Below are positions 27,169-40,286 of a stretch of 64,000 nucleotides of DNA, in pieces. A program made the position numbers and the translations under genes. This DNA comes from an uncultured Kiloniellaceae bacterium. GTDB lineage: Bacteria > Pseudomonadota > Alphaproteobacteria > Kiloniellales > Kiloniellaceae. Position 1 is the stretch's first letter. Each line of letters opens with the position of its first letter. The notes beneath the pieces are model-generated. The model searched no databases and was not told where the DNA came from. It worked only from the letters and a program-made list of their open reading frames with translations. The DNA is taken from positions 124,001 to 188,000 of the forward strand of contig CANLSF010000007.1 in the NCBI GenBank assembly GCA_947493695.1. Reading direction: 5' to 3'.

Positions 27169-29316
27169 TCAAAACTTCACGCGCAGTGTGGCGAGAAAGC
27201 TTCGGGGCTGCCCTGGCGCGACGCTGTTGCCTAAAAAGCCATAGGGCAGAAAGTATTCTTCATCGAAGAGGTTCTCGACCGAGACTGAGACCTTCGCCGG
27301 ACCGATTTCATAACCGATCCGGGCATCGGCCACGGCGTAACCGTCAGTTTCGAAGCTGTTGGGCAGGGTTATCTCGGCACCGGACGACGCCGTCAGGCCC
27401 GCGCCCAGCGAAAGGCCTTTCGCATCGCCCTTCAGGAACCGATATTGCCCGGCAATCCGCCCGAAGCTTTGCGGCACGCGCACGAGCCTGTCCCCGACCG
27501 GAAGCGTGGTATCCTTGGTGACCTCGGCCTGCTGGTAGGTGACGTTGGCCAGCAGCGAGAGCTCCGGCATGGGTTGCCACAGAAATTCCGCCTCGACCCC
27601 GCGGGTGCGTTGCTCGCCTGACTGGATCTGGGTGAGCGGAATCTCGGGGTTCGACACAGTGACGTTCTGCCGCTCCACCTGAAACACGGCCAGGGATCCG
27701 GAGAGGCCGACGTCCAGATCAAATTTGACCCCCGCTTCGATCTGTTTCGAGGTCTCGGGCTCAGGTGTTTCACCCGCGACCGCCGGTGTAAAAAAGAGCG
27801 GTTGTTCAAAGCCCTCTCCATAACCGGCGAAAAGCGTGACCTGGTTGGTAATGTCATAGGCCACACCGACACGCGGCGTCAGTTCGTTCTGTCGGGACTC
27901 TGTCCCCTCGGTCAGCGCGTCGCCACGGTCGTCAAGCTTCAGCCGTGTGTAACGCAGTGAGCCGGTGAGATGCAGATCCTCCCACAGCGTGACCTGGTCC
28001 TGGACGTAGATGCTGTAAGAGGTGCTGTGAATGTCGGCGCTGGTACCCGGATTTACGGGACTTGGGAGGGACGTGAAATCCGGCCTGACAGGGTTCAGGA
28101 GGTCCAGCACCCCCCCAGTCGGCAAAAAGGTTGTGGTGCCCGCGTACTCGGTTCGGTCCACCTCCACCCCAAACAGCAACCGGTGACTTGCCGATCCGGT
28201 CGTAAAATCCTTGGTCGTCCAGAGGTTCCCGGTGAACTGCTCCACGTCGTTGGTCAACTGACCTGTGAAAACCGGAAAGCTCAGTCCCCCTAAACTCGAT
28301 CCGAAGAGGAAGCTGTCGTTTTCCTCGAATTCATCCGAGATATACTGAAACGAACCATGCAGGTTCCAGCTGTCACTGATTGCATGATCGATGAATGTCT
28401 GGATGCTGTAGGTCTCTGCATGACTTTCCGGCGGATTGAGCGCGCCCGGAAACTGCGTTTCGTCAAAACCGCTGAAGGTCACCGCCGCGGCGGGCAATCC
28501 CGGATACTCGACGAAATCGCGTTCGCCGTAGAAGCCCAGCACGCTGAGCGTCGTATCCTCGCCGACATCGACTTCGACTGCCGGGAAAAGATTGGTCTGC
28601 TGCGACTGAAGATCGTCGATAAAGCCGTCTTCGGTCCGCATCTCCGCCTGCATTCTGAAACGAAGCTGCCCGTCCTCGACGAGCGGAGCATTGACGTCAG
28701 CGCCGATCCCCCGATTTCCGAAACTGCCGCCGTCGACTTCAACAGAGCCGAAGAATTCCTTCGGGTCAGGTCGTTTGCGCACGATGTTGATGATCCCGCC
28801 CAGGGGAGATCCAACGCCGCCGCCGAACAGCGCGCCCGATGGTCCCTTGATAACCTCAACCCGCTCGACCTGAATGGTGCTCAGGGGATCGGCACTGTTC
28901 GTGAAACCGAACGCCGGTTGGCCATCATAAAAATTACGCGCCTCAAAGCCGCGAATGATCGGCGCGGTCAGAAAAAGCTCGTCATCCCTGCTGACAACAA
29001 CGCCGGGCACATTGCGCAGAACGTCTGCCACGCTTTGGGCGTCCTGCTCTTCAATGATCTGCTGAGGAAGAACCTGCAGCGATTGGGGAATTTGCCAGAC
29101 CGGTGTGCGGGTGCGGGTCGGGCCGTCCGCCGTTGGCGCGCGCCAGCCCTCGACAGGACCGGCAGGCGTTTCGGCGGGGCCCTCTTCCTCAATCACAACC
29201 GCATCCAGTTCCAGGATTTCGCTGCTGTCTTGAGAAGCTGCGGGCACGGCCGTAAAGGCCGCAAAAGCAGCGCTTGCGACAGCGCTGTGCGCCATCGCAT
29301 GAAGGTACTTCGTCAT
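27169..29316 (-). CDS. TonB-dependent siderophore-type outer membrane receptor
   Basis: This 715-residue outer membrane receptor has a signal peptide (cleavage near AASQD), a TonB box-like segment (ELDAVVIEEE), a plug domain (QSLQVLPQQIIEEQDAQS, VERVEVIKGPSGALFGGG) and a 22-strand barrel ending in LRVKF with the C-terminal aromatic needed for Bam insertion. The plug signatures are those of ferric-siderophore receptors (FhuA/FoxA type). No siderophore synthesis genes or TonB are in the window. It is followed by a DJ-1/PfpI gene and preceded by a small DUF2946-like gene, all on the minus strand; Fur-box sequence was not confirmed. Confidence 0.93.
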   Translation of the reverse strand: MTKYLHAMAHSAVASAAFAAFTAVPAASQDSSEILELDAVVIEEEGPAETPAGPVEGWRAPTADGPTRTRTPVWQIPQSLQVLPQQIIEEQDAQSVADVLRNVPGVVVSRDDELFLTAPIIRGFEARNFYDGQPAFGFTNSADPLSTIQVERVEVIKGPSGALFGGGVGSPLGGIINIVRKRPDPKEFFGSVEVDGGSFGNRGIGADVNAPLVEDGQLRFRMQAEMRTEDGFIDDLQSQQTNLFPAVEVDVGEDTTLSVLGFYGERDFVEYPGLPAAAVTFSGFDETQFPGALNPPESHAETYSIQTFIDHAISDSWNLHGSFQYISDEFEENDSFLFGSSLGGLSFPVFTGQLTNDVEQFTGNLWTTKDFTTGSASHRLLFGVEVDRTEYAGTTTFLPTGGVLDLLNPVRPDFTSLPSPVNPGTSADIHSTSYSIYVQDQVTLWEDLHLTGSLRYTRLKLDDRGDALTEGTESRQNELTPRVGVAYDITNQVTLFAGYGEGFEQPLFFTPAVAGETPEPETSKQIEAGVKFDLDVGLSGSLAVFQVERQNVTVSNPEIPLTQIQSGEQRTRGVEAEFLWQPMPELSLLANVTYQQAEVTKDTTLPVGDRLVRVPQSFGRIAGQYRFLKGDAKGLSLGAGLTASSGAEITLPNSFETDGYAVADARIGYEIGPAKVSVSVENLFDEEYFLPYGFLGNSVAPGQPRSFLATLRVKF

Positions 29317-29351: not shown

Positions 29352-29732
29352 TCAGAACAAAGTTGGCGGACCTCGCGCGCCGGGACGATCAGCCGCCTGA
29401 CCGGCGGGTACTTTCCGCGTCCGAAGCCTCAAAGTATCTTCGATCGCCCTGTGCTCAACGCTGTGCGACTGAGCGAAAAGTTCTGGCAGGATTGTCGTCG
29501 CCGTCAGAAGCGGGCAGTCGATTGTGTGTGCAGCGTCCGGGGCACCTTCGCCCGGGTCTCCATCCTTCGCTAGCCCCGCATCACTTAAATCGAGAAATAT
29601 GATCTGACCGCCGCTGCAGATCGGGACCAGGAAACCACCATCATCCTTTTCGACAGCCGACATGAATGCCGACGCAGAAACTGCGTTGAGAAGCCAAAGA
29701 AGGCTCATCAGAATGGCGATCAGGCGATGCAT
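29352..29732 (-). CDS. DUF2946-like small exported protein
   Basis: The ATG at 29732 gives 126 residues starting with a signal peptide (MHRLIAILMSLLWLLNAVSASA). The mature part has ICSGGQIIFLD and IDCPLL, the paired-cysteine pattern of DUF2946-type proteins often encoded next to TonB receptors and copper genes. An upstream ATG at 29768 is possible but adds an unlikely charged extension. It lies 35 bp before the receptor gene on the same strand, so the two are probably cotranscribed. Metal binding is an inference from the Cys pattern and context. Confidence 0.6.
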   Translation of the reverse strand: MHRLIAILMSLLWLLNAVSASAFMSAVEKDDGGFLVPICSGGQIIFLDLSDAGLAKDGDPGEGAPDAAHTIDCPLLTATTILPELFAQSHSVEHRAIEDTLRLRTRKVPAGQAADRPGARGPPTLF

Positions 29733-29966
29733 CGAGGCGAATCTTCTTTGAGAATTAGTACGATACAATCAAGACGTGTGAACTGTGCCGGTGTCAATGG
29801 GAATTGATGGAGAGAGGAGAATCCGTCAGGTTTGGAGAGCGCGCGGCTTTTCGCACGCCATGCAGGTTATGTCTAACTGCATTCCTGGTTAAACCAGACC
29901 CGCTGAGCTTTTCAAACGCTGCCCAGGGTCGGCCAGAACAGCCTGTTCTTCGGTGCCGGGCCCAGG

Positions 29967-30419
29967 TCAGGCCACAGGAAGCTGAGCGGAATCGAACCAA
30001 TACTTCTTCAGGGACTTCATGACCTCGATCATGTCCGCGAAGCTTGTAGGCTTTGTGATGAAGGTGTTTGCGCCGATATCGTAACTCTTGACGATGTCGG
30101 TTTCCGCCTCGGATGTGGTCAGAACAACGACCGGAATCCTGCGCAAATCCATATTGCTCTTGATCTGTTTCAGCACAGTGAAACCATCCACGCCGGGCAT
30201 ATTCAAGTCGAGCAGGATAAGATTAGGACGCGGGGCGCGGGACTGATCGGTGAAGCGACCTTCGGTGAAGAGGTAATCGAGGACTTCAGCGCCATTTGTG
30301 ACGACTTGAAAATCAACTTTATGACCCGCAGACGCAATCGCCTTTTGAACGAGGACGCCGTCTTCCGGGTCATCATCCACCATCAGAACCTTAAATCGCT
30401 TCGTTACGCCCTGCATCAT
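29967..30419 (-). CDS. Single-domain response regulator (Rcp1-like)
   Basis: From the start at 30419 (or the next ATG at 30416) it encodes 150 residues forming a lone receiver domain. The acid pocket is VDDDPED, the phosphorylation Asp lies in LILLDLNMPGVDG, and the Thr/Lys switch residues in VLTTSEAE and ITKPTSF. There is no output domain. Such Rcp1-like regulators pair with phytochrome-type and related kinases. Its start overlaps the end of the ethylene-receptor-like kinase gene by about 28 bp, so it is probably that kinase's partner. Confidence 0.9.
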   Translation of the reverse strand: MMQGVTKRFKVLMVDDDPEDGVLVQKAIASAGHKVDFQVVTNGAEVLDYLFTEGRFTDQSRAPRPNLILLDLNMPGVDGFTVLKQIKSNMDLRRIPVVVLTTSEAETDIVKSYDIGANTFITKPTSFADMIEVMKSLKKYWFDSAQLPVA

Positions 30420-31725
30420 TATTCCGCCGCGTTGGTTGCGAGGTGGGCAATTGGATCTTAAAGATCGCACCCTCGCCACGTGAGGAAACGGCTTCAATCG
30501 CACCGTTATGATTTTCCACGATTTTCTTGCAGATAGCCAGACCTATTCCTGTTCCATCAAATTCACTGCGTCCGTGCAACCGCTGGAAGATCGAGAAAAT
30601 TCGTTCTGCATCCTCCTGATTAAAGCCGATCCCATTGTCCTGTATCGTAAGCTCAACATAGGCGCCGCCGGTCCCTGGTGCGCCCCTTTCATGCAGTGTT
30701 GCGTTTACTTTTACTTCTGGAGTGGAATCAGCGGCGCGGTATTTAAATGCGTTGACCAGCAGATTTTGCATCAGCAGTCGGATCTGTGTCCGATCACCGG
30801 GCACGAGAGGCAAATCACCGATTTCAAGCTTCCCGCCCGACTCTTCGATGCGTTCCGCCAAATCGAATTCTACTTCCTCCACCACTTCGGCGAGATCGAC
30901 GCTCGCAAACTTGATTGAATCCCAGGAGAGGCGCGAAAGCGTCAAAATATCCTTCGTCTGTTTGTTCATTCTGTGCGCAGCGTTCTGCATGATCAGAACG
31001 TACTGCAGAGCCTCTTCCGGCAGATCGTTTTCATACTCGCGTTTCAGGAGGTCGCTGAAGGCCTGAATTTTCCGAAGGGGTTCCTGCAGATCATGAGACG
31101 CGACATAGGCAAAGCGCTCCAGCTCGGCATTCGTCGCGGTAAGCAACTCGGCTTTTTCGCGTAACTCTTCTTCCAGCAGGGTACGACGCTGCACATCCTC
31201 TTTAAGCCGCTGGTTCACTTCCTGAAGTTCACGGGTTCGCGCGACGACCTGCGCCTCCATCTGACTATAGGCATTGTGGAGCTGAATCTGCGCCTCGTTT
31301 TTATCCGAGATTTCATCCGCGAGCCGTTCGTTCATCGCGCGGAGCTGGCTGGGGCCTGGCAAGGCAAGTACTTTTGGCAGCATCGGCCAGAGCGAGATCG
31401 CCGTAATCACCGAAATCAATGCCGTCATCAGTTTTATCATCCCCTGAGCCCCGTAGTAGGGCTCCCACAGCATGATCATCCCGGTCAGATGGGTGACCCC
31501 GCAGGCGAAAATGAAAAGCGCGAAGAGGCCGAAGGTCCTCTTAAACGCAAGATCTTCGCGTTTGTTCAGCAGCAGGATCAGAGCAATCGGGATCGAAAAG
31601 TACGACACAGCAATGACGCCGTCCGAGAGCGCGTGTATCGCAATCAGATCGGGCCGCCATGCGAGACAGTAACCATGGGGGACGAAAGAAGCGGCACCGA
31701 ACAGATATTCGTAGATTGCTTGCAT
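30391..31725 (-). CDS. Histidine kinase with ethylene-receptor-like membrane sensor domain
   Basis: The 444-residue kinase begins with three membrane helices (about 30-53, 63-85 and 95-118). This domain matches the copper/ethylene-binding domain of plant ETR1 and cyanobacterial SynEtr1: with ETR1 numbering plus ten, Asp35, Tyr42, Ile72, Cys75 and His79 correspond to D25, Y32, I62, C65 and H69 of ETR1; motifs are YFSIP and ACGVTH. Glu38 of ETR1 is Ala48 here. A coiled coil (about 130-210) leads to HisKA (ASHDLQEPLRK, His within) and a HATPase domain (DNGIGF, GTGIGLAIC). It is the middle gene of a three-gene signalling operon; 18 bp separate it from the upstream kinase gene. Ligand is inferred, not shown. 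Confidence 0.9.
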   Translation of the reverse strand: MQAIYEYLFGAASFVPHGYCLAWRPDLIAIHALSDGVIAVSYFSIPIALILLLNKREDLAFKRTFGLFALFIFACGVTHLTGMIMLWEPYYGAQGMIKLMTALISVITAISLWPMLPKVLALPGPSQLRAMNERLADEISDKNEAQIQLHNAYSQMEAQVVARTRELQEVNQRLKEDVQRRTLLEEELREKAELLTATNAELERFAYVASHDLQEPLRKIQAFSDLLKREYENDLPEEALQYVLIMQNAAHRMNKQTKDILTLSRLSWDSIKFASVDLAEVVEEVEFDLAERIEESGGKLEIGDLPLVPGDRTQIRLLMQNLLVNAFKYRAADSTPEVKVNATLHERGAPGTGGAYVELTIQDNGIGFNQEDAERIFSIFQRLHGRSEFDGTGIGLAICKKIVENHNGAIEAVSSRGEGAIFKIQLPTSQPTRRNNDAGRNEAI

Positions 31726-31743
31726 GGAAAACCCCCGAGGGTG

Positions 31744-33012
31744 TTACGAGATAAAAGGCCGCTTCTTAAGCCTGTCTGGCGGAAAGGTCAGAATGACCCG
31801 CGTGCCGGATCCCAAGTCACTTTTTATGTCGAGAACCCCGTTATGCAGTGCGATAAAAGAACTGATAATGGAGAGCCCGAGACCAGCGCCGGCGGCAGGG
31901 CTCTGAGACTTTCGGATCTGCGTGAAGGGCTCCTTGACCCGTTCGATCTGCGCCGGCGGGATCCCGATACCCGTGTCTTCGACAATCAGATCCAGACCAT
32001 CACCTGTAACCTCAACGCAAAGCATGATACGGCCATTTTCAGGCGTGAATTTTATCGAATTGGTGAGAGAATTGATCAGCATGCGTTCCGCAAGCTGACG
32101 ATCAGCATAGAGCAATGGCAATCCCTCCGGAAGGATGGTTTCAATCGACAGCTTTGCTGCCGTCGCGCTCGGCGTAATCAGCTTAAGCACCATCGATATC
32201 ATGTCCTCAATTTCGATATCGGTCTCGTTCAGTTCGACGTTTCCGGACTCGATTTTCGACAGATCGAGTATATCACTGATCATTGACAGGAGGATTTGCC
32301 CGCTTTGATTGATGTCGCTGGCATACCCCAGATATCTCTGGGCCCCGATCGGCCCGGCGATCTGCTGTTGGATGGCTTCGGAGAATCCGATAATCGCGTT
32401 CAATGGCGTCCTGAGGTCATGGCTCATCCGAGCCAGAAAATCGGATTTCGCCAGGTTCGCCGTCTCTGCCTCATGCTTAGCCTGCCGCAAGAGGGACTCG
32501 CTGCGGCGTAACTGCTGCTCCGTTTCGAACTGAACCCGGACATGGCGGATCGTCCGTTCGAGCAGAACCCCGGTGAGACCATCCTTATCGAGGTAGTCGT
32601 AGGCTCCCGCCGCGGTCGCTTCCATATCGACTGCGTAATCACCGCGTCCGGTCAGGATAATCATCGGGGTGCCACCCAAGCGCCCACCCAGCTCTTCCAC
32701 AAGTTCGAGCCCGCAGTGCTCGCCGAGGTGATAGTCGATGAGGCCAACGTGGAAATCTTCATTCTTTAAAAGTCCGAGCGCGTCTTCGAAACTCGCAACG
32801 GTGACAACACTGAACCTCGGGGTCTCAATTTTCGACAGAAGCTTATTGATCAAAAGATGATCGACTGAATCGTCATCCACATAGAGAATTCGACAGCGTG
32901 CAGTCTGCAAGGCTTCTTGGCGACGGTGTTTTGCTTTCGGCGCGCAGGAACAAGGACTGCAGGCACTTGACGAGCTTCGATCTGACGTCAACCGGGCTTT
33001 GGAGTAGGTCAT
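31744..33012 (-). CDS. Receiver-histidine kinase (REC-HisKA-HATPase)
   Basis: This 422-residue soluble protein has an N-terminal receiver domain ([32 protein letters not shown]) followed by a coiled coil, HisKA with [17 protein letters not shown] and a HATPase with DTGIGIPP and GAGLGLSI. The order REC before kinase marks it as a relay element that may accept phosphate from another kinase. The first 40 residues, rich in Ser and Cys ([14 protein letters not shown]), are unusual and may mean that translation begins later. It is the first gene of the operon containing the ethylene-receptor-like kinase. Confidence 0.9.
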
Positions 33013-35162: not shown

Positions 35163-35354
35163 GCGTCGTATCGCCTGGGCAGTCTCGGTGATTATTCCGG
35201 GCTTGTAAAATTCGGATGCCGGTCACGGGTGACGCTCAGCCTGGGCCGCAAAGTTCCAGGAACTGCGGAGAAAAAGCGGGCGCATGAAAAGATAAAGTCT
35301 ATAAACTATTGGAAAATAACAAAAAATTATTTTTAGAGAACTATATTTCAAATG

Positions 35355-35368
35355 CCCCTCAAATGGGG
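35355..35368 (+). promoter_or_regulatory. CCCC-TCAAAT-GGGG element, copy 1
   Basis: The inverted repeat CCCC-TCAAAT-GGGG ends 57 bp before the ATG of the first secreted paralog (35426). The same element (one base pair longer in the stem) occurs at 39807-39822, 56 bp before the second paralog. Identical spacing to the start codon suggests a shared promoter or activator site. Confidence 0.6.
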
Positions 35369-35425
35369 ATGCCGTTCAGACAAGATCGGCATCACTGTCT
35401 TGCAACACTCAATTGGAGGACAGAC

Positions 35426-35833
35426 ATGCTTTACAAAACTTTTTCAAAACTCGCATTGGCAGCCAGCGTTGCAGCCGTTTTCGCCTTTTCCCCGGCCCAG
35501 GCCGAAAAGATCACCCCAGGCCTGAAGTCCGAGCTTCAGGGGGCCATGATCGATTACATCGACTACAACACGGTCGACGGCAAGTTCCTGTATCTGAACG
35601 CGACGCAAGACAAGGTGGTCAACTACTTCCCGGCCAATCTGCATCCGCGCATTCTGCAGATCGGTGACTACTTTGTGCTCTGTTCCGATTTCAAAACACT
35701 CGACGGCGCGAACGTTGACGTCGACTTCCTGGCCGTCTCTGTCGACAACGAAATCCGTGTGATTCAGGCCCTCGTCGGACAGCGGGATGTCATCCGCAGA
35801 ATGATGAAAGCCCACATGGCATCAGCCGGCTGA
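35426..35833 (+). CDS. Secreted 135-residue protein, paralog A
   Basis: The ATG at 35426 follows GGAGGACAGAC; the longer frame from 35309 is rejected. A signal peptide ends near PAQA/EKI. The mature protein is about 113 residues with the pattern SELQGAMIDYIDYNTVDGKF, FVLCSDF and a C-terminal RRMMKAHM. It contains one Cys. A second gene at 39879 encodes a clear paralog of identical length, differing mainly in the middle. Both flank a histidine kinase and a secreted protease. No family was recognised. A role as an extracytoplasmic ligand or substrate is only a suggestion from context. Confidence 0.8.
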   Translation: MLYKTFSKLALAASVAAVFAFSPAQAEKITPGLKSELQGAMIDYIDYNTVDGKFLYLNATQDKVVNYFPANLHPRILQIGDYFVLCSDFKTLDGANVDVDFLAVSVDNEIRVIQALVGQRDVIRRMMKAHMASAG

Positions 35834-35899
35834 ACCGGATTTAAACCACAGCTTTCAGCGTGAACGCAGAGGGATTTGGCGCACAACAGGAGACGTAAG

Positions 35900-37552
35900 A
35901 TGGCACTGTTCAATGATGCGGCGGACTCGGGGATCGAAATCCAGGAACAGACCGGCTGGTTCCGGAAACTGGATGTCCGCCGCTCATTGATCGCCAAGTT
36001 TATTCTCTTCTCGGCGCCGGTAATCCTGATCTGCAACGCTTTCTTTTTATATCTCTACGCCGACTTCCGGCGCGAGGCGATGCAGGACGAACTGGCCGTC
36101 GAAATGGCCGCCCTGGCTGTCCGCACATCACAGTCGCTGAAAGTCCCGGTGCGCAGCGGAGACATCGAACTGGGCCGCACCCTTCTGGACGGCCTGGCCG
36201 GACATCCAGATGTCATTTGCGGTGAAGTTTTCGACGCAGGCGGCGCGCGCCTCTTCGCCTGGCCCGGCCTCGGCTGCAGCCAGATCCAGGAACGCGGCAT
36301 CGCCTTCGAGCGGGCGATCAAGGACCGCAGGAAATCCATCGGCACACTGACCATCGAATACCGCGACAGCCTGCTTGAGGAAAAACTCTTCGCGGACGTT
36401 CTTTACATCGTGGCCGCCCTCGGCTTCTCAGGCCTGATCGCGGTTCTCTTCACCTCTATCGTCCACTGGCTCACGATCGGCCGCCCACTGGGCCGCCTGC
36501 TGAGCGCCCTGAACAAGACCGCCCAGGCCGGTGAGCGCGCATCCGTCATCTGGCGCAGCCGTGATCAGCTGGGCATCGTCATCAATGCCTATAACCGGAT
36601 GAGCGAAACCGAGGCAAAGCGCAAGGCTCAGTTGCGCACCGCGAACGAGGAACTGAAAGTCGAGGTCGCCGAACGTCTTCAGGCGGAGAAATCGCTGAAG
36701 GAAACCCAGGCACAGCTTATCCAGGCCTCGAAGATGGAAGCGCTGGGTACGCTGGCCGGCGGCATTGCCCACGAGATCAACACACCGATCCAGTATATCG
36801 GCGACAACCTGCGTTTTCTCTCTGACGGTTTTGGTGACCTCCGCGATCTGGTCGCCAGCTACGAGAGCGTTATCGGTAAAGTCGATCAAACCGAGAGCAT
36901 GGCCGCGGTCCTGGCTGAACTGGAAAAGCAAAAAGAGGTCTCGGACGCAGAGTATCTCTTTGAAGAGGCCACCGTGGCGGCGCAGCAATCGCTCGATGGT
37001 GTCGGGCAGGTGTCGCAGATCGTCACAGCGATGAAAGAATTCTCGCACCCCCGCGCGAAGGAGACAGGACCGGTTGCGCTCAACGACATCGTCGAGCGCG
37101 CAACGGCCATCTGCCGCGGCGAATGGCGACAGGCGGCGACGCTGGATCTGGAACTGGAGGAGGCGCTGCCCATGGTGCCGGGCCTCGAAGGCGAGCTCAA
37201 TCAGGTCATCCTCAATCTTGTCGTAAATGCGTCCCATGCAATCGCCGACACGGAACGCAGCGACGGCAAGATCAAGGTCACCAGCCGCAGCACGGAGACC
37301 GGTGTCCGGCTGGAAGTGCGCGACAACGGCAACGGCATCCCGGAAGACGTGCAGGCACGGATCTTCGATCCTTTCTTTACGACAAAGGACGTCGGCAAGG
37401 GCAGCGGCCAGGGCCTTGCCATCTGCCACGACATCATCTTCAACAAGCACAAGGGCAAGATCTACTTCGAAACCGAGGCCGGTACAGGCACAACCTTCAT
37501 CATCGAACTGCCGGGTGACCCGGGCGGCGACATCGATACCAAAGCGGCGTGA
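35900..37552 (+). CDS. Membrane histidine kinase
   Basis: From the ATG at 35900 (ACAGGAGACG upstream) it encodes 550 residues: TM1 at about 30-52, a periplasmic region of about 120 residues with two Cys ([15 protein letters not shown]), TM2 at about 172-198, HAMP, coiled coil, HisKA with [14 protein letters not shown] and a HATPase ([26 protein letters not shown]). It has the Hpk4-type insert seen in NtrB/FleS-like kinases. No cognate response regulator is adjacent. It follows secreted paralog A by 66 bp on the same strand and is convergent to a secreted protease, so it may sense the envelope events those proteins report. Confidence 0.9.
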
Positions 37553-39806: not shown

Positions 39807-39822
39807 CCCCCTCAAATGGGGG
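39807..39822 (+). promoter_or_regulatory. CCCCC-TCAAAT-GGGGG element, copy 2
   Basis: Stem CCCCC / GGGGG with the same TCAAAT loop as copy 1 (35355-35368), ending 56 bp before the ATG of secreted paralog B. Both genes also share strong ribosome-binding sites, but the sequence between element and start is not conserved, so this element is under selection on its own. Confidence 0.6.
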
Positions 39823-39878
39823 TGCAACTTCCGCGGCGTCTCCGACATGATCTGAGCAGATTGAAACGGAGGGCAGCC

Positions 39879-40286
39879 ATGTTTAACAAATTTTTATCCA
39901 AGATTGCTTTGACCGCCTGCGTCGCAGTGGGCTTCAGCCATGCACCGGCAAATGCCGAGACGGTCTCGGGAAACCTGAGATCCGAACTGCGGGCTGCGAT
40001 GGTGGACTACATCGACGCCAACTCGATTGACGGCAAGTTCCATTACCTGAACCCCGTAAACGGCACCTTCGTGACCTACGAGCCCGTCGAAGTCTCGGCG
40101 GTCGTGTTGAAACTCGGCGAGCACTTCGTCATTTGCTCCAGCTTCGACACCAAGGACGGTAAAACCGTGTATCTCGACTTCCTGGCTGTTCAGGCAGAAG
40201 GGGAAGCGCGCGTGCTTCAGGCGCTGGCCGGGAAAAGAGGCGTCACCCGACGGATGATGCAGGCCCATCAGGAAGCAGAGGGCTGA
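39879..40286 (+). CDS. Secreted 135-residue protein, paralog B
   Basis: The ATG at 39879 follows GGAGGGCAGCC. Signal peptide to about ANA/ETV; the mature region keeps the paralog pattern SELRAAMVDYIDANSIDGKF, FVICSSF and RRMMQAHQ. Like paralog A it is 135 residues with a single Cys. It is followed by a good terminator hairpin. The two paralogs are 4 kb apart with the kinase and protease between them, which argues for a functional locus, not mere tandem duplication. Confidence 0.8.
   Translation: MFNKFLSKIALTACVAVGFSHAPANAETVSGNLRSELRAAMVDYIDANSIDGKFHYLNPVNGTFVTYEPVEVSAVVLKLGEHFVICSSFDTKDGKTVYLDFLAVQAEGEARVLQALAGKRGVTRRMMQAHQEAEG

Follow-up and report, generated by a model that had tools for sequence, protein, structure and literature searches.

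The closest described counterpart of the locus reported here is the AzoEtr1-AzoRR(etr1) system of Azospirillum brasilense, in which a 525-residue kinase combines an ETR1_N domain, a PAS domain, and a HisKA/HATPase transmitter, and in which a lone-receiver gene overlaps the end of the kinase gene (PMC11819568). Residues 1-130 of AzoEtr1, in which D35, C75, H79, and K98 are the numbered residues, bind ethylene in yeast (Pichia); Azospirillum forms less biofilm and colonises roots less when exposed to ethylene or when the receptor is lost, and the authors predict from other receptors that ethylene lowers kinase activity (PMC11819568). SynEtr1 of Synechocystis PCC 6803 has the same ETR1_N input and a histidine kinase that signals to a response regulator, but it is also light-sensing and acts via slr1213 and a small RNA, whereas plant ethylene receptors signal mainly via a Ser/Thr kinase (PMC11819568).

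Within the window (the whole 64,000-nucleotide stretch of DNA that was analysed, from a genome of 6.46 Mb in 20 contigs), a comparable kinase, here called EtrHK, lies in a row of three minus-strand genes, as an earlier note on this DNA had claimed. In their order on that strand, these encode (i) a receiver-kinase of 422 aa (31744-33012; Response_reg, HisKA, and HATPase_c by Pfam); (ii) EtrHK itself, of 444 aa (30391-31725), which comprises, by Pfam and a structural model, ETR1_N, a long helical linker, HisKA with H211, and HATPase_c; and (iii) a lone receiver, listed as an ORF of 178 aa with a Response_reg match in Pfam (29967-30503). The likelier start of the receiver is the ATG at 30416, where its alignment with two sister genomes begins, giving a protein of ∼149 aa of the Rcp1/BphR type (29967-30416). 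The receiver-kinase and EtrHK genes are separated by 18 bases, and the receiver gene, read from 30416, shares 26 bases with the end of EtrHK. We consider it probable that EtrHK is a copper-dependent membrane ethylene receptor kinase of the bacterial ETR1_N family, which signals to the lone receiver and has the receiver-kinase as a third partner. The ethylene-receptor reading draws on a profile match, seven of seven binding residues, a three-helix model, the binding-proven relative AzoEtr1, conservation of the sensor half, and gene order.

The input domain of EtrHK, residues 27-122 (31360-31647, minus strand), matches ETR1_N (PF25487) with E=2.5e-35 and 121 bits, against a curated cut-off of 27, and was found at the same place in the search of its own genome. 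Alignment with ETR1, which had been proposed as a check, points the same way: BLASTP of EtrHK against ETR1 residues 1-130 alone gave 32% identity over 108 columns (E=5e-13 in this one-subject search), and the local alignment score was 126, whereas none of 1000 shuffles scored above 60. Since the profile and BLASTP E-values and a score far above the shuffles agree, the likeness to ETR1 is not due to chance. In this alignment, D35, Y42, I72, C75, and H79 of EtrHK correspond to D25, Y32, I62, C65, and H69 of ETR1 plus ten, which is the spacing that the earlier note had read from the sequence, and the alignment adds I45 and P46, which pair with I35 and P36 of ETR1, so that all seven positions are kept. 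Plant ETR1, which also has a GAF domain, shares with EtrHK the seven binding positions, as well as a three-helix domain that is predicted in EtrHK. The residues D25, C65, and H69 of ETR1 are also named as ethylene-binding in PMC11819568. By the alignments, the helix-1 residues D35, Y42, I45, and P46 are encoded at 31588-31623 and the helix-2 residues I72, C75, and H79 at 31489-31512, both on the minus strand, with C75 and H79 being the predicted copper ligands. We read AzoEtr1 from plasmid ABSP7_p1 of strain Sp7 (our locus L160), where its length and first residues fit the published description (PMC11819568); over the N-terminal 125 residues, it is 45% identical to EtrHK.

In an alignment of 100 rows (A3: the window, AzoEtr1, and 98 fetched rows, with 14 of the 112 listed rows left out), all seven positions are kept in 89 rows, and H79 and K98 are present in every row; among the omitted rows are the divergent L049, L050, L052, and L066, with H79 missing from at least L050 and L052, and family rows with lost binding residues thus exist. 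In comparisons with two genus relatives, taken one at a time, EtrHK is 92% conserved in its sensor half, versus 78% in the rest of the protein. A domain tree (100 rows, 125 columns) places the window with these two relatives in its sole well-supported small group, the deeper forks being poorly supported. Preceding helix 1, and not covered by the Pfam match, is a PHGxC motif (residues 16-20; 31666-31680, minus strand, from alignments A1 and A3), which is nearly invariant in bacterial domains and represents a bacterial form, being absent from the ETR1 sequence aligned here. All 22 rows of A1, from which L030 and L031, both lacking PHGxC, were excluded, have P16, H17, and C20. Of the 100 rows of A3, 97 have H17 and 99 have C20, but a scan with the pattern PHG[YFM]CL[LA]W supplied most of these rows, which were hence selected on PHGxC itself. 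H17 and C20 may be extra metal ligands that bind or deliver copper, or may form a disulfide.

A fold prediction, the second check proposed for this domain, gave the arrangement expected of an ethylene-binding domain. An AlphaFold2 model of residues 1-125 (65-row alignment; mean pLDDT 89.1, pTM 0.78) contains three long helices (25-55, 62-84, and 91-112): helix 1 carries D35, Y42, I45, and P46, helix 2 carries I72 together with C75 and H79, which are i/i+4 to each other, and helix 3 carries K98. In the predicted models the ligands are thus on the second of three predicted transmembrane helices, and the full-length model (28-row alignment) has a mean pLDDT of 82.7 and a pTM of 0.53. A comparison of the domain model with solved structures returned 63 matches, none at E≤0.001, and a domain-profile sequence search of solved structures returned only xanthorhodopsin (E=0.53) and no solved ETR1_N structure. 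The profile match, the residues, the predicted fold, and the experimentally proven relative together support the original proposal that the kinase is ethylene-receptor-like.

The remainder of EtrHK and the lone receiver resemble an orthodox two-component pair, with (i) H211, a D363 box, and a G391 box in the kinase; (ii) an adjoining receiver carrying LLDLNMP with D99 (178-aa ORF numbering); and (iii) the 26-base gene overlap. Probable phospho-sites are H211 of EtrHK, D99 of the lone receiver, and D93 and H198 of the receiver-kinase. The closest solved relatives of the lone receiver, which has no output domain, are the phytochrome response regulators RcpA (1.4e-29), RphyB (1.4e-29), and Rcp1 (2.2e-29), and among the solved relatives of the EtrHK transmitter the first is an entry named only histidine kinase, while the second to fifth are bacteriophytochromes. 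EtrHK and its receiver thus look like a phytochrome-type kinase/receiver pair fitted with an ethylene-type input. They nevertheless differ from the Cph1-Rcp1 and BphP-BRR pairs, as Pfam found no PAS-GAF-PHY chromophore module in EtrHK, and from AzoEtr1, as EtrHK has no PAS match in Pfam and is paired with an Rcp1-type receiver. Nor did Pfam match a light domain or transcription-factor output in the three proteins, unlike in the SynEtr1 system. The earlier note had also seen a phosphorelay with its whole chain encoded together; no HPt, DNA-binding, or enzymatic output domain was matched by Pfam in any of the three proteins, and a complete phosphorelay is therefore not supported.

In a rival account, the receiver-kinase has no part in ethylene signalling and is a neighbour through history only, the working unit being the EtrHK-receiver pair as in Azospirillum; this is compatible with our preferred reading in all but the third partner, and we regard it as a serious possibility, somewhat short of an even chance. 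A lone receiver lies directly 3' of 8 of 22 non-hybrid EtrHK-type kinases among the profile-surveyed loci and of 13 of 24 among the named loci, whereas a receiver-kinase on the same strand within two genes occurs at none of the 75 non-duplicate named loci and at 6 of the 40 profile-surveyed ones, three of the six being from this genus (all counts are approximate, since genes were called with a simple ORF script and our own profiles). Likewise, our profiles matched no receiver-kinase in the 16 kb around AzoEtr1, and none is among the upstream genes that PMC11819568 names, unlike in the window. A weak terminator-like hairpin (31773-31756) overlaps the receiver-kinase 3' end, which would also favour the two-gene account; we place little weight on it, because the stretch contains 3 such sites versus a mean of 4.9 in shuffles. 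Against that account, the three genomes of the genus that have the receptor, among them the window's, all carry the receiver-kinase 5' of EtrHK and keep the three-gene order; furthermore, a receiver-kinase lies 3' of the pair at three more distant loci in two genomes (L039 and L045, both of G435, and L070 of G361), and a split version of that arrangement occurs in a third genome (L075 of G295). The survey of homologs that had been suggested thus upholds the three-gene order within the genus, where the genes may form the operon that the earlier note proposed. The receiver-kinase had no sensor domain matched by Pfam.

We observed that its N-terminus carries a short Cys motif, SPC[SA]C (32944-32958), which is kept in all three genus members while the rest of the tail varies. 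We also observed that at L075 (9791-13503) and L071 the ETR1_N domain is a separate protein of 138-140 aa, and the kinase gene that comes next has no ETR1_N match; these are possibly split receptors.

Under our preferred reading, with the receiver-kinase as third partner, ethylene would bind to Cu(I) that C75 and H79 hold within a dimeric three-helix domain, and autophosphorylation at H211 would change upon binding, most likely to a lower level, in line with proposals for other ethylene receptors. The Rcp1-type lone receiver, whose gene overlaps that of EtrHK, would then receive the phosphate, and the receiver domain of the receiver-kinase would either take phosphate from EtrHK or be set by the same signal, thereby branching the signal to regulators encoded elsewhere. 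By analogy with AzoEtr1, the physiological output may be surface attachment or metabolism. For EtrHK itself, we infer copper and ethylene binding, the direction of the response, partner specificity, and physiological output.

Ethylene or copper sensing had been called unusual for a heterotrophic alphaproteobacterium, a view that our surveys do not bear out. Profile searches found ETR1_N in 3 of 4 genomes of the genus (G001 gave no match), 4 of 23 of the family, 9 of 61 of the order, 28 of 385 sampled from the class, and 29 of 398 sampled from the phylum, with 28 of these 29 over the cut-off; each search gave 0 of 14 among control genomes. A scan with a single peptide pattern (one genome per species) returned 267 stretches encoding relatives, from which the best 80, being those most similar to the window's domain, were kept, and 18 plasmid records match, 7 of them from Azospirillum. 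By these genome, pattern-scan, and plasmid counts, ETR1_N in bacteria is patchy but not rare, and it includes the binding-proven Azospirillum receptor (PMC11819568). Since bacterial ETR1_N sensors are already known, the window locus is not surprising, though it is a good new example: through it, the Denitrobaculum group joins the bacteria whose ethylene receptor seems intact, and it supplies two genome-encoded candidate partners.

A second rival account retains the metal and dispenses with ethylene, in that the domain would be a copper (or metal/redox) sensor whose signal is the occupancy of C75/H79, perhaps together with H17/C20. The invariance of H17 and C20 alongside C75 and H79 (22 of 22 rows) suits such a sensor, as does the presence, 3' of the lone receiver on the minus strand, of a DUF2946 gene (29352-29768, Pfam) and a TonB receptor gene (27169-29316), which recur in one of the two sister genomes (G003). 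However, the TonB receptor is of the siderophore type, exceeding the cut-off of the siderophore-receptor family TIGR01783 (326 bits), and no copper-receptor family is among the best 25 of the 29 families that match it; in the other sister genome, G002, the two genes do not adjoin the receiver. We therefore rejected the link to copper uptake, and as the nearest tested relative binds ethylene (PMC11819568), we consider a copper sensor unlikely.

A side finding concerns the ETR1_N proteins without a HisKA or HATPase_c match, which make up 33 of 115 non-duplicate loci by our own profiles (a few being fragments or split genes). PhyK is the kinase of the general stress response, and phyR encodes a regulator of that response. 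A PhyR gene lies near the ETR1_N gene at 20 of these 33 loci, versus 0 of the 82 loci with a HisKA or HATPase_c match (phmmer with the PhyR of L086, >60 bits, same strand, within the fetched stretch; farthest distance 4,514 bases), and at 16 of the 20 the stretch also holds an EcfG-like gene. The 20 loci are L086 (8692-11803), L065 (8672-12291), L050, L051, L052, L064, L066, L083, L085, L087-L089, L096, L099, L103, L105, L106, L108, L114, and L116, and they come from, among others, Roseibium, Stappia, Amorphus, a Tepidamorphus MAG, and, within the window's order, three genomes (L064, L065, and L066). They do not amount to 20 independent events, because many are closely related and the named set consists of the best 80 by likeness to the window's domain. 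Five of the 33 proteins were scanned with Pfam, and all are HWE kinases, four with PAS; one of the five, L092, has no PhyR nearby. All six PhyR proteins scanned with Pfam combine a receiver with the two PhyR sigma-like domains. The ETR1_N kinase at these loci thus seems to stand in PhyK's position, and our literature search, judged by titles and the beginnings of abstracts, found no report linking an ethylene receptor with the PhyR/EcfG general stress response.

Key residues could be read at 18 of the 20 PhyR loci, with 14 keeping all eight positions; the cysteine ligand is gone from L050, L051, L052, and L066, and in three of these the histidine is gone as well. These four still match the domain profile, which indicates that the domain can be reused, and from their residues they seem to serve something other than ethylene; that ETR1_N was similarly retuned in the window's lineage to another small gas or hydrophobic signal at the same copper (another alkene, CO, or cyanide) is nevertheless very improbable, as EtrHK keeps all seven ethylene-binding positions and its sensor half is its slowest-evolving part.

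The surveys suggest that alphaproteobacteria connect ETR1_N to at least three kinds of output, namely a HisKA kinase with a lone receiver, a hybrid kinase, and an HWE-type kinase, often beside phyR, and this variety leads to the prediction that ethylene modulates the general stress response in some alphaproteobacteria. Taken as a whole, the following extension is tentative, and we would sooner doubt than assert it: an ethylene sensor grafted onto a phytochrome-type kinase/Rcp1 pair would form, together with the receiver-kinase, an ethylene-controlled branched relay, and alphaproteobacteria would have plugged ETR1_N into various stress circuits, including the PhyK position of PhyR-NepR-EcfG, which would place general stress resistance in, e.g., Roseibium and Stappia under the control of ethylene.

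The window genome also encodes an ACC deaminase (G000:C9:147474-148478; 591 bits versus a cut-off of 392) and so may both sense ethylene and destroy its precursor. Across the order, a link between the two traits was rejected for want of a clear association (5 of 9 genomes with ETR1_N versus 17 of 52 without it); within the genus, the receptor-bearing G002 and G003 have no ACC deaminase over the cut-off, and the receptor-less G001 has one. Elsewhere in the window, a further histidine kinase gene with a HATPase_c match in Pfam lies at 35876-37552, and two genes (35309-35833 and 39816-40286), whose proteins are alike by eye and each have a signal-peptide-like stretch, lie on either side of it.
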